NCBI GenBank assembly: GCA_000961765.1
Contig: LADT01000042.1
Location: forward strand, 1-40,906
Length of the DNA stretch: 40,906 nucleotides
Reading direction: 5' to 3'
Source: Clostridiaceae bacterium BRH_c20a
GTDB taxonomy: Bacteria > Bacillota > Peptococcia > Peptococcales > BICA1-8
Positions 3,340 to 34,377 of the stretch are shown here, one piece after another. The first letter of the stretch is position 1. Every line of letters begins with the position of its first letter. The position numbers were made by a program, and so were the translations under genes. The notes under the pieces are model-generated. The model searched no databases. It saw only the letters and a list, made by a program, of their open reading frames with translations, and was not told the DNA's origin.

Positions 3340-3398
3340 AGGTTTCGCTTCGCTAGGTTAAGGTTAAGGTTAAAGTTAAGATTAAGATTAAGATTAAG
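3340..3398. repeat. Degenerate GGTTAA/GATTAA hexamer repeat with CGCTTCGCT leader
   Basis: The stretch opens with AGGTTTCGCTTCGCTAGG and continues as about seven tandem hexamers drifting from GGTTAA through AGTTAA to GATTAA. It sits between two hairpins. The same leader and hexamers recur at 18221-18343, 19595-19626 and 22007-22165, with a related element at 25593-25670. Confidence 0.8.
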
Positions 3399-3750: not shown

Positions 3751-4146
3751 TTAAAGGTTTTTATGGGTGAACCCAAATAACCATTTTAGAAGCCAAAAAA
3801 TAATTACCAGCATTAAAAGTGTTTCAAAGAAAACATTGTTAAATAAAGCCCTATTTTTTACGGGAGCAATAAAAGTAACCGCCTTAGGAGAAGGATTTAT
3901 TTTTACTATTTTTTTGGGTAACTGATTATTGGCTAGCTTTTCTCTAGGCGGCATAAGTGCACCTAGACCATATGTGGTATTAGGCTTTTTAAGGGAAAAG
4001 CTTCCCACAATATTATTGAGGCCTTTAACCAAGCTTTTTAGAGGGTTAGATCGAACATTTTTTTTAGATTCAAGCAAATCCGGCGAACCTTCCCCTGCTT
4101 CGTCTAATTTTTCCGGTAGTGGTCCCTCATCATATATTTCCGGCAT
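3751..4146 (-). CDS. Hypothetical protein with C-terminal FFETLLM membrane segment
   Basis: 131 residues from the ATG at 4146, preceded by AAAGGAGGA at 7 nt; an upstream in-frame ATG (4218) lacks an SD and would swallow the promoter. Residues 1-100 are hydrophilic and rich in Pro, Lys and Asn. The last about 30 residues, containing LFNNVFFETLLMLVIIFWLL, form one transmembrane helix nearly identical to that of the tiny proteins at 14708, 15004 and 15233. So the protein is a long soluble N-terminal region fused to the small-peptide membrane anchor. A sigma-K-like promoter lies at 4185-4193. The function is unknown; membrane or coat anchoring is inferred. Confidence 0.8.
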   Translation of the reverse strand: MPEIYDEGPLPEKLDEAGEGSPDLLESKKNVRSNPLKSLVKGLNNIVGSFSLKKPNTTYGLGALMPPREKLANNQLPKKIVKINPSPKAVTFIAPVKNRALFNNVFFETLLMLVIIFWLLKWLFGFTHKNL

Positions 4147-14707: not shown

Positions 14708-14845
14708 ATGGCTGATCAAGCTGTAGGTCAATACGGCGGTGGTGGTCTTTTGTTTAATAACGTGTTTTTTGAAACCCTACTCATGGTTATAATTATTTAC
14801 TGGCTGTTAAGATGGCTCTTTGGTTTTGGTTACTGCGGATACTAG
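14708..14845 (+). CDS. Tiny membrane protein, FFETLLM type (copy 1)
   Basis: 45 residues, SD AAAGGGGG 7-8 nt before the ATG. It begins MADQAVGQYGGGG and continues with LFNNVFFETLLMVIIIYWLL as one transmembrane helix, then RWLFGFGYCGY. The MADxxxGQ(Y/F)G start is shared by the other five small genes here, and the membrane segment matches those at 15004 and 15233 and the C-terminus of the 4146-3751 protein. The short Gly-rich hydrophobic design recalls YjcZ-type sporulation peptides, but it is not a clear member. Probably a spore-envelope peptide. Confidence 0.8.
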   Translation: MADQAVGQYGGGGLLFNNVFFETLLMVIIIYWLLRWLFGFGYCGY

Positions 14846-14852
14846 TTCTACT

Positions 14853-14888
14853 TAAAGGGGTAAAGCTTTATAAAGCTTTACCCCTTTA
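14853..14888. repeat. Perfect inverted repeat (hairpin) after peptide gene 1
   Basis: Two 18-base arms (14853-14870 and 14871-14888; core AAAGGGGTAAAGCTTTA) abut without a spacer. The following plus-strand sequence is A-rich, not T-rich, so this may protect or process the mRNA rather than terminate it. Confidence 0.6.
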
Positions 14889-14924
14889 AAAAAGAAAAAG
14901 GATAAAAATATAAATTACCTTGGA

Positions 14925-14952
14925 ACCAGATTTGCCTGCATTACATACGATA
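14925..14952 (+). promoter_or_regulatory. Sigma-K-like promoter for peptide gene 2
   Basis: AC at 14925-14926, 17-nt spacer, CATACGATA at 14944-14952; ATG 52 nt downstream. Confidence 0.55.
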
Positions 14953-15003
14953 TAACGTAAATCAACCAAATCAGACTGCAGAAACATGAAAGGAGGAATA
15001 AAA

Positions 15004-15138
15004 ATGACAGACAAGGCAGCCGGCAAATACGGTAGTGGTGTACTTTTCAACAACTACTTCTTTGAAACTCTACTTATGATCATAATCATCATCTGGCTTT
15101 TAAGGTGGCTCTTCGGGTTCGGTTATGGCACCTGCTAG
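15004..15138 (+). CDS. Tiny membrane protein, FFETLLM type (copy 2)
   Basis: 44 residues, SD AAAGGAGGA about 6-7 nt before the ATG. MTDKAAGKYGSG is followed by VLFNNYFFETLLMIIIIIW and LLRWLFGFGYGTC: one transmembrane helix, with a basic R/W cluster at its end and a terminal Cys. It differs from copy 1 mainly by conservative changes, so the pair arose by duplication. It has its own sigma-K-like promoter. Confidence 0.8.
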   Translation: MTDKAAGKYGSGVLFNNYFFETLLMIIIIIWLLRWLFGFGYGTC

Positions 15139-15156
15139 AAAAATAATTAATTCTGC

Positions 15157-15184
15157 ACCCGAATATCACAATTTTCATAAGATA
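15157..15184 (+). promoter_or_regulatory. Sigma-K-like promoter for peptide gene 3
   Basis: AC at 15157-15158, 17-nt spacer, CATAAGATA at 15176-15184; ATG 49 nt downstream. Confidence 0.6.
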
Positions 15185-15232
15185 TATCGTAGAGGTCGAT
15201 AATGACCTTTAAATGAAAGGAGGAAATATTAA

Positions 15233-15370
15233 ATGGCTGATAATCTTGCTGGTCAATATGGTGGCGGTGGTGTTTTATTTAACAACTACTTTTTCGAGAC
15301 ACTTTTAATGATTATTATCATTTACTGGTTGTTAAGATGGCTCTTTGGTTTTGGTTACTGTAATTACTAA
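15233..15370 (+). CDS. Tiny membrane protein, FFETLLM type (copy 3)
   Basis: 45 residues, SD AAAGGAGG about 9 nt before the ATG. MADNLAGQYGGGG leads into VLFNNYFFETLLMIIIIYW and LLRWLFGFGYCNY. It is closest to copy 1 (both 45 residues, both ending GYC-x-Y). Single predicted transmembrane helix; Gly-rich N-terminus. The same sporulation-promoter context applies. A hairpin without a clear T-tract follows. Confidence 0.8.
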   Translation: MADNLAGQYGGGGVLFNNYFFETLLMIIIIYWLLRWLFGFGYCNY

Positions 15371-15385
15371 TTACAACCTGAAATG

Positions 15386-15626: not shown

Positions 15627-15670
15627 GGAAGTTATTATAGGTTGAAATATCTAAGAAAGGAGGCATTTAA

Positions 15671-15784
15671 ATGGCTGACAATGTAGCTGGTCAATTCGGT
15701 TTTGGTTTTGGTTCTATTTGGTTGGTCTGGGTAGCCATCATTGCCCTGGTAATCTTCGTGTTCTGTATCCCTGGCTGTTTCTAG
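15671..15784 (+). CDS. Tiny membrane protein, FGFGSIWLVW type (copy 1)
   Basis: 37 residues, SD AAAGGAGG about 8 nt before the ATG. MADNVAGQFGFGFGSIWLVW opens the peptide, followed by a single transmembrane helix and the end FCIPGCF. The first 22 residues match the gene at 15928 except Ala/Pro at position 2, a recent duplicate. Function unknown; likely the same class of sporulation membrane peptide. Confidence 0.8.
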   Translation: MADNVAGQFGFGFGSIWLVWVAIIALVIFVFCIPGCF

Positions 15785-15793
15785 GATTGCCAA

Positions 15794-15832
15794 AAATAAA
15801 ATGGTAAGGCTTTTAGCCTTACCATTTTATTT
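15794..15832 (+). terminator. Strong intrinsic terminator
   Basis: A 17-bp perfect stem (15794-15810 with 15816-15832; core AATGGTAAGGC), 5-base loop, with the T-rich arm ending ATTTTATTT. Confidence 0.8.
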
Positions 15833-15852
15833 AATATCAAACATCTAATCTC

Positions 15853-15880
15853 ACAATCTAAGCATTTTTCTCATAGTATA
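15853..15880 (+). promoter_or_regulatory. Sigma-K-like promoter for the last peptide gene
   Basis: AC at 15853-15854, 17-nt spacer, CATAGTATA at 15872-15880; ATG 48 nt downstream. Confidence 0.6.
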
Positions 15881-15927
15881 TTAATGTAAAGAGAATATAG
15901 CCTTATTTGGAAGGGGGTTGAATATAT

Positions 15928-16047
15928 ATGCCTGATAATGTAGCTGGACAATTCGGTTTTGGTTTTGGTTCTATTTGGTTGGTCTGGGTAGCTTTGATAG
16001 CCTTGATCATTTTCGTTTTTTGCTTCCCATATGGCGGATACTGCTAA
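15928..16047 (+). CDS. Tiny membrane protein, FGFGSIWLVW type (copy 2)
   Basis: 39 residues, SD AAGGGGG about 9-10 nt before the ATG. MPDNVAGQFGFGFGSIWLVW is nearly identical to the start of copy 1 at 15671; the helix then diverges and the end is FPYGGYC. It has its own promoter and terminator, so it can be made separately from the upstream peptide cluster. One membrane helix, Gly-rich N-terminus, C-terminal Cys. Confidence 0.8.
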   Translation: MPDNVAGQFGFGFGSIWLVWVALIALIIFVFCFPYGGYC

Positions 16048-18220: not shown

Positions 18221-18343
18221 GGTTTAGGTTTCGCTCGCCCTCAGGCTCACTAGGTTAAGGTTAAGTAAAAAAATCTAGGGTTTTCACCTTAATCTAGCGA
18301 AGCGAAATCTTAAAATCTCAACCTCAACCTCAACCTTAACCTA
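18221..18343. repeat. Inverted cluster of hexamer repeats between gerA- and gerC-type genes
   Basis: The left half holds AGGTTTCGCTCGCC and TAGGTTAAGGTTAAG; the right half holds the complementary CTTAATCTAGCGAAGCGAAA and tandem AACCTC/AACCTT hexamers. The halves can pair in RNA. It ends a few bases before the SD of the gerC-type gene. Confidence 0.8.
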
Positions 18344-19513: not shown

Positions 19514-19594
19514 AAAATCCCCGGTCGTGATTTTTTACAGTCTATACTTTGAGGCTATACAAATCTGTCTGTGGGCGAGTGTGCGAGAAAAATC

Positions 19595-19626
19595 AGGTTA
19601 AGGCTAAGGTTAAGGTTGAGGTTGAG
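19595..19626. repeat. Hexamer repeat AGGTTAAGGCTAAGGTTAAG
   Basis: About five tandem AGGTTA/AGGTTG hexamers downstream of the gerC-type gene, the same family as at 3340 and 22007 but without the CGCTTCGCT leader. Confidence 0.75.
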
Positions 19627-19659
19627 AAAAAAAATAAAATAGACATTCAATGATTGTGT

Positions 19660-19732
19660 CAGACGCAATATTTTGACCAGATAGCTTTACTGGGCACTGG
19701 GCACTGGGCACTGGGCACTGGTCACCGGTCAC
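19660..19732. repeat. Solo CAGACGC element followed by six TGGGCAC heptamers
   Basis: GTGTCAGACGCAATATTTTG (core at 19660-19667) is a single copy of the unit arrayed at 23889-24124. At 19691-19732 lie six exact 7-bp units: TGGGCAC four times, then TGGTCAC and CGGTCAC. The same pairing of the two families recurs at 23663-24124. Confidence 0.85.
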
Positions 19733-19777
19733 GAATATAGTTTGTTCACCAGCCACTAACCAATTGGAGGTAATGCC

Positions 19778-22006: not shown

Positions 22007-22165
22007 ATAGGCTAAGGTTTCGCTTCGCATTTGCTTCGCTAGGCTAAGGTTCCGCTTCGCTAGGCTAAGGTTGAGAAAGGACTTTAAACCTTAACCTTAA
22101 CCTTAACTTAACCTTAACCTCAGCCTTAACCTTAACCTTAACCTTAACCTTAACCTCAGCCTTGA
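22007..22165. repeat. Long inverted array of AGG(C/T)TA / CCTTAA hexamers
   Basis: The left part has two AGGCTAAGGTTTCGCTTCGC-type leaders; the right part (22088-22163) is about a dozen CCTTAA/CCTCAG hexamers in the opposite orientation, so the region can fold into a long imperfect hairpin. It ends just before the SD of the 22185 gene. Confidence 0.85.
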
Positions 22166-22184
22166 TCTTAAGGAGTGAATTGAT

Positions 22185-23110: not shown

Positions 23111-23575
23111 TCACTCATTTTCCGGTAGGTATTTTAAAATCATCACAGCAATAACTCCCCCTATCAATGCTGTTATTAACTGGGGGAAACTTAGAGCCTG
23201 GGCTACCTTAGGCGGTACCTGTATAATAAAGTTTACAGCTAGCGATAAAAAGCTGAATTTAACAATAGCACCTACAGTAATACCTACCAAATTATTAACC
23301 TTTCTAGCCCAATAAAATCCCAAACACAATAAAGCATTCCCTACCATTATTACCGGCACAGCAATAGCTAAGGGCATTATCCCCTGTAAAAAGGCCATGA
23401 CTGGAGAAAATATTCCAATGATAATGCCTGTTAAAATACCCGTATATCCGGTAGCTAGAATTAAAATTGCATTGATAGCAGGACCTGTTAACCACTGAAC
23501 CTTCATTTGCTGAACAGCAATAGTCAAAGCCAAAAGAATAGCGGTACGAGTAATTATTTTTGCAGTTATTTTCAT
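23111..23575 (-). CDS. ECF transporter S component (substrate-binding subunit)
   Basis: 154 residues from ATG 23575 (SD GAGGTG, 6 nt); the in-frame GTG at 23584 lies inside the SD. Five to six hydrophobic helices, with the N-terminal RTAILLALTIAVQQMKVQWL and the early helix motif ILILATGYTGILTGIIIGIF typical of S components, then a Pro/Gly-rich PVIMVGNALLC. S components bind a vitamin or metal and share the EcfAAT module, which is encoded elsewhere. The substrate cannot be read from the sequence. Its SD is sequestered in a hairpin (23584-23614), suggesting translational control. Confidence 0.85.
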   Translation of the reverse strand: MKITAKIITRTAILLALTIAVQQMKVQWLTGPAINAILILATGYTGILTGIIIGIFSPVMAFLQGIMPLAIAVPVIMVGNALLCLGFYWARKVNNLVGITVGAIVKFSFLSLAVNFIIQVPPKVAQALSFPQLITALIGGVIAVMILKYLPENE

Positions 23576-23581
23576 AATAAA

Positions 23582-23614
23582 CACCTCAAAATCATTTTAG
23601 GCCATATTTTGAGG
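23582..23614 (-). promoter_or_regulatory. Hairpin sequestering the Shine-Dalgarno of the ECF S component
   Basis: In the minus-strand RNA, CCUCAAAAU (plus 23606-23614) pairs perfectly with AUUUUGAGG (plus 23584-23592); the latter contains the GAGG of the SD. The loop is 13 nt and includes ATG GCC TAA, a two-codon mini-ORF. Confidence 0.55.
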
Positions 23615-23662
23615 CAAATCAATAGTTAATAGTTAATACTTAATACTTATGGGTTAAGCTTT

Positions 23663-23799
23663 TGCGTCTGACATTTACTTATACTGATAGAATTTTGCGT
23701 CTGCATTTACTTATACTGCTAGATTATCGGGTCTGACATACTCACAGGTCAAGCTTTTGCGTCTGACAATACTTATACTGTCATTTTTACCCGTCTGAT
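23663..23799 (-). repeat. Left CAGACGC array, five units, minus orientation
   Basis: Cores TGCGTCTG at about 23663, 23696, 23728 (CGGGTCTG), 23758 and 23789 (CCCGTCTG), spaced 30-33 bp. Read on the minus strand each unit is CAGACGCAA, a variable middle, and AGTATAAGTAAATGT-like ends. It is inverted relative to the array at 23889. Confidence 0.85.
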
Positions 23800-23824
23800 A
23801 AGAACTTTTAATTCTTGATTTTTC

Positions 23825-23879
23825 TGGGCACAGGGCACTGATCACTGGGCACTGATTATTTGTATTTATCACTGAGCAC
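23825..23879. repeat. TGGGCAC heptamer cluster at the centre of the two arrays
   Basis: Exact 7-bp steps at 23825-23852: TGGGCAC, AGGGCAC, TGATCAC, TGGGCAC; a further TGAGCAC at 23873-23879. The same heptamer as at 19691-19732. Confidence 0.8.
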
Positions 23880-23888
23880 AGTTTTTAT

Positions 23889-24124
23889 CAGACGCATAAT
23901 TTTCACCCATTAGTTATGTCAGACGCAATATCTTTACCCAGTAGTATTGTCAGACGCAGCAAATTGTCCCCAAAGTAGATATCAGACGCAACAAACTGAC
24001 CTCAAAGTAAATGTCAGACGCGTAATCTTAGCCAAGTAGCAATTGTCAGACGCAATAAACTGTCCCCAAAGTAATTGTCAGACGCAACAAATTATCCTGG
24101 CAACAATTATCAGACGCAAAATGT
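23889..24124 (+). repeat. Right CAGACGC array, eight units of 31-32 bp
   Basis: CAGACGC cores start at 23889, 23920, 23951, 23983, 24015, 24047, 24079 and 24111 (steps 31, 31, 32, 32, 32, 32, 32). Each unit has a degenerate middle, often TGTCCCCAAAGTA or TTACCCAGTAGTA, and ends in TTGT. The last unit abuts the stop codon of the MFS gene. Together with the left array it fills most of the 549-base gene-free gap. Confidence 0.9.
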
Positions 24125-25519
24125 TCACTCATTTGCATCCTTTTTACTTCCCGCATATTCAGCTTCTGCTATTTTCTTTTTTTTACTAATCTTTTTAAGT
24201 TTTGGCTTTAAGGCGGGCCTTATTAAAATTTTACCCAAAGTGTTACGAAGGCTTATGGTATCAAAAACTATTTCTCCCCAGGTTGGATGGTCTATTTCTT
24301 CCGTTTCCGGGTTTTTTTCCTGTTCTTTATAAAACTCCTGCTTAATTCCCAAAAACGCCAGTATGGCGGCAGTCACCGCCAATCCACCGGTAGTGCCAAA
24401 GGTTAATAAATTACTTTTTTCCATAAGAATACCAAAAACAGGAGGGCCAATTGCAACTCCAAAAAAGCGTACAGCACCATAGAGAGCGGTTATCATTCCT
24501 CGCTCAGCCATGACTACAGTACTAGTTATTATTGTATTTAGAGAGGTTAAAACTAATCCACCGCCTATACCTCCTATTACTAGAGCGCCAATAAAAATAT
24601 AAGTATTGTTAATAAAAAAAGGTATAATAAAATTCGATGACCCCAATAACATCACACCAATCACAACGAATATTTTATAATTAGGGTTTTTATTTTGAGT
24701 TATTATTCCCGTTAACAAAGATGTAACAGAAATAGCCAACACAGGAATAGCCAGCACTAAACCTTTTATAACTCCTTCTAATCCATATTTTTTTTCCAGA
24801 TAATCTGATAGATAAAACAAAGTTCCAAAAAGAGCATACAATGCAACTGAACCTGCAAAAAAAGCACTAAGTAAATGAAAGCCTTTGCCTTTAAAAATTC
24901 TTTTGAGAGCAGACAAATATTCTTGTACGGTTTGTGCTTTTTTATTAGTAGTTGGATCTTTAACTAAAAACCAGACAGCTAAAGCAATAGGAATACAAAG
25001 AACGGGAAAAACAAAAAATGTTGCATACCAAGCTATCAGACCAACTAATGAACCTAAAATTGGACTAACTACTTTTCCTAAACCATTGGAGGCTTCTAAT
25101 ACTCCAAGGGCTTTACTCCTTTCGCCTGATACAAATATATCACTGGAAAGAGCCATTGCTATAGGAGCAGTACCGGCAGCACCTATGCCCTGTAAAACTC
25201 TACCGGCCATTATAACTAGGTAAGAGTTATTTAAAATTAGGATTCCTAGTAAAGATACCACTCCCCCGAGACCATACAAGATTAAAGAAGGCACTATTAT
25301 CATTTTTCTACTTATTCTATCAGAGAGAAAACCGGCAATAGGAATAACTAACCCTGCCGGAACAGAAAATAAGGTTATAACCAAGCTGACTTTAAACTGG
25401 GAAATATTTAGTGCTGATTTCATTTGGGGTAAAATAGGAATAAGCATCGAATTTCCCAAAACCATAATTAAGGGTACACCAGCTAAAGCCGCTAAAGTGA
25501 CTCGAGTTTTTGCCTTCAA
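24125..25519 (-). CDS. MFS transporter, drug:H+ antiporter (DHA1)-like
   Basis: 464 residues from TTG 25519, 8 nt after AAGGAG; a GTG three codons upstream overlaps the SD. Twelve predicted helices. SVPAGLVIPIAGFLSDRISRK holds the MFS motif A (G-x-L-S-D-R-x-x-R-K) between helices 2 and 3, and GRVLQGIGAAGTAPIAMAL resembles the motif around helix 4 of efflux pumps (here A-x-x-A-x-A rather than GxxxGPxxG). A hydrophilic C-terminal extension of about 65 residues ends in a Lys-rich KPKLKKISKKKKIAEAEY tract. Probable efflux of small organic compounds; the substrate is unknown. Confidence 0.88.
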   Translation of the reverse strand: MKAKTRVTLAALAGVPLIMVLGNSMLIPILPQMKSALNISQFKVSLVITLFSVPAGLVIPIAGFLSDRISRKMIIVPSLILYGLGGVVSLLGILILNNSYLVIMAGRVLQGIGAAGTAPIAMALSSDIFVSGERSKALGVLEASNGLGKVVSPILGSLVGLIAWYATFFVFPVLCIPIALAVWFLVKDPTTNKKAQTVQEYLSALKRIFKGKGFHLLSAFFAGSVALYALFGTLFYLSDYLEKKYGLEGVIKGLVLAIPVLAISVTSLLTGIITQNKNPNYKIFVVIGVMLLGSSNFIIPFFINNTYIFIGALVIGGIGGGLVLTSLNTIITSTVVMAERGMITALYGAVRFFGVAIGPPVFGILMEKSNLLTFGTTGGLAVTAAILAFLGIKQEFYKEQEKNPETEEIDHPTWGEIVFDTISLRNTLGKILIRPALKPKLKKISKKKKIAEAEYAGSKKDANE

Positions 25520-25567
25520 TAGATCCACTCCTTTTTATTGTGCCAAAGATATTTTACCCGTAAATGC

Positions 25568-34218: not shown

Positions 34219-34310
34219 CCTCCCACCTCCTCATCTAAGATATTCACACATTAACCAGTATAACATGGATTTACTCACTCCTCAGCAAGAAAAAAATGTC
34301 AAAGGGACGA

Positions 34311-34370
34311 GTGTCAAAGGGACGGAGCATTTGACACTAACTATTGTCAAATGCTCCGTCCCTTTGACAC
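34311..34370. repeat. Perfect 26-bp inverted repeat
   Basis: Arms 34311-34336 and 34345-34370 pair over all 26 bases with an 8-base loop; the core is AAAGGGACGGAGCATTTG. A partial copy (TGTCAAAGGGACGA) precedes it at 34297. It ends just before the stop of the amidohydrolase gene and could terminate that operon. A related GGGACGG word is at 22441 (CAGGGACGGTTCTTGAC). Confidence 0.8.
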
Positions 34371-34377
34371 TCCGTAT

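Follow-up and report, generated by a model that had tools for sequence, protein, structure and literature searches.

The pair of outward-facing repeat arrays located between positions 23643 and 24132 of the window (the whole 40,906-nucleotide stretch of DNA analysed here) belongs to a family dispersed over the same genome. In the reading to which we give about an even chance, an ancient two-armed intergenic element has one of its copies here; its rows of sites would be occupied by a putative DNA-binding protein, and it would play a structural or topological role resembling that of BIMEs. Insertions of ~300 bp in compact operons (mraZ|rsmH, cdaR|glmM|acpS, etfB|etfA, split transketolase) ought to be costly, but they were kept at the same sites in different genera, and the long-standing question of whether the host gains anything from dispersed bacterial intergenic repeats becomes directly testable in this system.

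The array of the window and its repeat unit

The left arm (23643–23800, minus strand) consists of five inverted units of ~31 bp, whose cores are exact at 23664, 23697 and 23759 and degenerate at 23729 (GGGTCTG) and 23791 (CCGTCTG). The centre (23801–23885) contains a cluster of GGGCACTG-type heptamers (23829–23856) and has at its right end the B-type start TTTTTAT|CAGACGC. In the right arm (23886–24132, plus strand) eight units of ~31–32 bp carry exact CAGACGC cores at 23889, 23920, 23951, 23983, 24015, 24047, 24079 and 24111, and the row stops at the 3′ end of an MFS transporter gene (24125–25528, minus strand; PF07690). On the other side the element is flanked by an open reading frame of 157 amino acids (23111–23584, minus strand) with no match in Pfam or NCBIfam. 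All eight right-hand cores described in the earlier note, with steps of 31, 31, 32, 32, 32, 32 and 32 bp, were found again exactly, and its five inverted cores are present with steps of 33, 32, 30 and 32 bp. Since the window contains 12 exact cores against 0.71 expected (0/100 shuffles), the array is not a product of chance. This copy is atypical: it has a B-like appearance at both inner ends and a mixture of sub-types in its right arm.

The consensus unit is TGTCAGACGCAATATGTTCACCCAGAAGTA followed by a linker of 1–4 bases; within about 28 bp, the site core TGTCNGAC, mostly TGTCAGACGC, is followed first by a fixed A, then by T, C and G, which are conserved as well. Among 95 distinct units, picked for intact cores only, A13 is present in 95/95 and C21, A27 and G28 in 94/95 each, while the positions between them are conserved at only 35–45%. 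In the shared arrays of relatives T2, C3, G5, A6, C7, A13 and T16 reach 92–98%. HMM matches are biased to resemblance, and the slots skipped by the HMM (8% in own arrays and 18% in relatives) were therefore inspected, being aligned on TGTC alone. In own and relatives’ slots, respectively, they preserve A6 in 19/21 and 19/21, C7 in 20/21 and 19/21, and A13 in 20/21 and 19/21, with position 4 variable, so that the core can be defined as GTC-N-GAC plus A13. Overall, GTCNGAC and the A six bases downstream are 90–98% conserved with adjoining bases free to vary, and this includes slots unselected by the search. No covariation was detected within the unit, and segments of two and three units did not outperform shuffles in folding (z +0.2 and +0.6).

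According to the earlier note, the period corresponds to three helical turns, which would place every core on the same face of DNA. This idea found no support. The mean step is 31.2 bp in this genome and 30.6 bp in relatives, the standard deviation of spacing rises over one to five units (1.1, 1.8, 2.5, 3.0 and 3.6 bp), and the resultant for 10.5 bp, initially 0.86, is down to 0.26 at four units. Phase is thus lost within about four units and, as the check in relatives indicated, is no conserved property of the family; the small drift in the window array is happenstance. A packed site of ~31 bp with a flexible linker is enough to explain the period. Degeneracy of the units, taken previously as a sign that recent slippage did not occur, keeps this meaning for the window locus only, since at some other loci there are higher-order repeats of 95 bp and adjacent units that are identical. 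The unit at 19660 lies where it was reported, but it is not solo: it is part of a composite remnant in the spore-germination operon (19583–19735, plus strand), which includes AGGTTA hexamers (19595–19626), an A-type leader (about 19643–19656), one unit (19657–19684, 22 bits) and heptamers (19689–19732), and a two-armed array occupies the same gap in another genus (G003).

Dispersal and placement in the genome

The draft genome containing the window (G000, 4.5 Mb, 92 contigs; all genomes used for comparison are also drafts) has 119 adjacent core pairs with 20–30 bp between them and none for the reversed control pattern. The genome-wide count of CAGACGC arrays proposed in the earlier note revealed a dispersed family: 67 arrays were registered in the 46 regions fetched, and further loci in the list of model matches bring the total to about 70–80, with about 340 units recognised by the unit HMM. 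A link to oriC was not found: dnaA is on contig C23, where no array is present among the pattern matches listed. No similarity to phages or plasmids was found either, and viral contigs gave one exact pattern match, the number that chance would give. A description of this repeat was not found in the literature searched. Across the five genera of this family of spore-forming bacteria, model R1 matches 173, 105, 57, 6 (E about 1e-3) and 0 times, and it finds nothing in 41 further genomes of the class; besides G000, arrays are abundant in G003 and G004, while the family was represented by four other genera in all. Two G000 loci (C29:31590 and C56:31) share 942 bp, identical as far as a contig end, and are probably a single locus that was assembled in duplicate where a repeat broke the assembly.

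At 55 two-armed loci the minus block lies on the left and the plus block on the right, so that the units face outward from the centre; the sole exception of “+−” type is a weak match at the start of a coding region. Arms commonly start as ACATGCAATGMTTGTGT|CAGACGC on the A side and as TTTTTAT|CAGACGC on the opposite B side. The distance across the centre is 22–24 bp in about half of the cases in relatives, and centres in the own genome often also contain GGGCACTG-type heptamers, AGGTTA hexamers or REP-like repeats. In most elements the two arms are composed of different unit sub-types with G/A versus T at position 14 (p 1.5e-5 for the difference between A and B arms), and similarity of units from opposite arms of one locus is 0.655 versus 0.680 across loci (sd 0.006; 0/20000 permutations as low). 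A 253-bp segment, both ends of which are inside other repeats, occurs at two loci with 95% identity, which shows some mobility or gene conversion. Tracts of the GGGCACTG-type heptamer, found in the window at 19689–19732 and 23829–23856 and at many other loci, adjoin outer or inner ends of arrays and flank them in another genus too (L188), as though all this were one composite. On contig C50 of G000 (L180; 4671, 5747 and 7533) three single arrays of one direction with a common leader follow each other at distances of about 1.1 and 1.8 kb; small ORFs lie in between, and the series resembles a local tandem amplification.

With genes assigned by simple longest-ORF calls, 43 of 46 two-armed copies are located between genes of the same direction, three between convergent genes and none between divergent genes, and a median of 31 bp is left to the gene on each side. 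Enrichment is modest, as 84% of adjacent genes in the same regions are already codirectional. Among single arrays 16 are sense and 25 antisense to transcription, which is no significant preference for a strand (p 0.21); the 23:11 split of polarity against transcription is borderline (p 0.058). The neighbours identified are housekeeping genes: etfB|etfA, tsaD, halves of the split transketolase, mraZ|rsmH, minE|rodA, htrA|rlmH, alaS, gcvPB, serine hydroxymethyltransferase, dapF and rapZ. The mraZ|rsmH gap with an array is 338 bp in G000, 277 bp in G003 and 313 bp in G004, against 10–24 bp in the 14 outgroup genomes measured and 18 bp in G002, while in G001 it is 94 bp with hexamers and no more than a remnant. 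The trend is similar in cdaR|glmM|acpS, whose array-bearing gaps are 262–402 bp against mostly <60 bp in genomes outside the family (a few are 66–354 bp). In this comparison the automatic upstream neighbour in G000 is a spurious ORF inside the array, and the names GlmM, CdaR and AcpS are based on sequence and gene order rather than on family search.

Conservation across genera

Of 39 arrays compared from the two array-rich relatives, 14 share their gap with an array of the own genome under the strict rule and 18 do so if an intervening ORF call is allowed, whereas chance would give approximately one such coincidence (a rough estimate for about 75 arrays and some 4000 gaps). Polarity is kept in 18 of 19 pairs of orthologous arms, and these arms are slightly more similar than permuted pairs (p 0.0008). 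At the same time the identity at fourfold-degenerate sites has fallen to 0.41 in glmM and 0.36 in rsmH, with 0.25–0.29 expected at full saturation. Positions of arrays, their polarity and constrained bases would thus most likely have been maintained for a long time by selection for sequence-specific recognition, most likely by a putative DNA-binding protein. The earlier proposals that selection acts on the core and that the arrays are not debris of one amplification are supported both by the conservation of positions across genera and by the constraint in the HMM-skipped slots. Motifs may also have been homogenised through gene conversion from other copies.

Since recognisable arrays are missing in G001 and G002 at the two gaps examined, the element is dispensable in part of the family. 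As the five-genus tree is only partly resolved (G000 groups with G004, support 94/95), the absence from G002 may mean either loss or a later insertion. These two relatives provide a natural comparison, helping to narrow the candidates for the binding protein.

Possible function, origin and known counterparts

One can suggest that a putative sequence-specific protein, probably a dimer, binds the GTC-N-GAC palindrome and fills close-packed rows of sites cooperatively, so that a bulky nucleoprotein complex would be formed between genes. The role of this complex would be structural or topological, as for E. coli BIMEs, rather than regulation of a single pathway. Probably, insertions spread the element in the ancestor of the family, and selection preserved it afterwards. 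A role at the DNA level is favoured because single arrays have no significant strand preference, and protein recognition at this level is supported by the absence of unit folding and covariation and by the arms avoiding complementarity. An array of protein-binding type, as proposed in the earlier note, is supported, while selection on its helical phase is not. A more ambitious version, which we regard as possible though doubtful, assumes a chromosome-wide system, where a dedicated putative protein would read GTCNGAC-N5-A rows in essential operons and build outward nucleoprotein clusters in set positions, serving as a bacterial chromatin landmark untied to the origin, the terminus or a single regulon.

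The same architecture could belong to a selfish foldback-type transposon similar to the Drosophila FB, Galileo and Tetris elements. Its arms would then be terminal inverted repeats in which a transposase supplied in trans finds its binding sites in tandem, and the intercistronic positions would only reflect tolerated insertions. Inverted arms of short tandem units around a variable middle, insertion of ~300 bp where the gap was ancestrally 10–24 bp, and the recent 253-bp copy at a second locus fit this scheme, as does the presence of multiple transposase-binding sites in the tandem repeats of the long terminal inverted repeats of Galileo (PMC3688188). However, resident copies have retained their constrained bases and polarity since the split of the genera, no transposase was found in the centres examined, and the outer ends examined gave no clear target-site duplication, with flanks too diverged for an empty-site comparison. 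The 253-bp copy is equally likely to be gene conversion, because it ends inside other repeats. RAYT genes, expanded to 19 in this genome, have no units beside them, and rve transposase counts do not follow the abundance of arrays, so both were rejected as mobilisers. Foldback origin is plausible, but selfishness as the whole explanation is rather unlikely, and the way in which resident copies stayed constrained through nearly saturated divergence speaks for use of the arrays by the host.

Transcribed arms might alternatively form a long intercistronic hairpin in operon mRNA, important for its processing or stability. The window array indeed folds far better than shuffles (z −8.0) and same-direction gene pairs flank most copies, but any inverted array would give such a score, the unit lacks covariation and Rfam at gathering thresholds has no match within the window. 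Moreover, arms of one locus are less alike than arms of different loci, which is the opposite of selection for pairing, so that arms as a complementary hairpin were rejected and the RNA-level explanation is quite improbable, even if, given the borderline polarity, RNA may contribute to some extent. The explanation we believe least is that the arrays are neutral, satellite-like debris which slippage and ectopic recombination have spread. Higher-order repeats of 95 bp and identical neighbouring units at some loci, and other repeat types nested in the centres, would fit it, but position-specific constraint in the HMM-skipped slots, conserved polarity and persistence of arrays despite nearly saturated synonymous sites speak against it, and decay in G001 and G002 demonstrates what unconstrained arrays look like.

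Among the closest counterparts of the element are the BIME/REP sequences of enterobacteria and pseudomonads, also present in dozens to hundreds of extragenic copies, often intergenic and composite with other repeats (PMC2817692). BIMEs are reported to bind several proteins, and their chromosome-organising role was suggested (PMC2817692). In contrast to REP units, which are palindromic hairpins of alternating orientation mobilised by RAYT, units of the arrays do not fold and stand head-to-tail in two outward arms, always as a minus block followed by a plus block; no array unit was found inside 12 Y1_Tnp loci, where RAYT flanked by inverted units would be expected. Foldback elements FB, Galileo and Tetris share inverted arms, variable numbers of short tandem repeats and a variable middle (PMC4079207, PMC3688188), but they are eukaryotic, Tetris having longer arms and units, whereas here the arms are unlike each other and the position is kept across genera. 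TAACTGA heptamers of Beggiatoaceae and cyanobacteria are abundant intergenic direct repeats near start codons, also beside essential genes (PMC4679880); as seven-base units of one direction they resemble only the heptamer component of our composites.

In plasmid iterons, and in partition sites like R1 parC, short direct repeats are lined up in rows that can bind a protein cooperatively. The arrays differ from them in having 70–80 chromosomal loci, and those examined have no neighbouring gene for replication or partition. A plasmid-type iteron origin was rejected, as there is no single locus with an initiator gene and unphased sites are dispersed beside housekeeping genes. A CRISPR array does not fit either: instead of being unique spacers, the intervals have conserved A, C and G positions in common and are found again at other loci.

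Several other repeats were noticed in the course of this analysis. In the window, 31-nt arms with 97% complementarity and a 2-nt loop lie at 34309–34372 (GAGTGTCAAAGGGACGGAGCATTTGACACTA). Since similar GTGTCAAAGGACCGTCCC-like motifs are found directly downstream of a Y1 transposase gene (L265), this hairpin may be a RAYT-mobilised REP pair. G000 has 19 Y1_Tnp (RAYT-like) matches (e.g. on contigs C22, C46, C17 and C62) while the other four genera of the family have 0–1; this expansion is lineage-specific and unlinked to the arrays. Hexamer tracts AGGTTA/AACCTT (in the window at 3355–3398, 18317–18342, 19595–19626 and 22087–22171) are tied to GCTTCGCTAGG motifs; they are dispersed genome-wide and frequently nest within array centres. 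Finally, at 14708–15372 and 15665–16028 of the window there are diverged direct repeats of 140 nt in three copies and 107 nt in two copies; they lie in a region devoid of long ORFs and have an inverted relative at 3770–3847.
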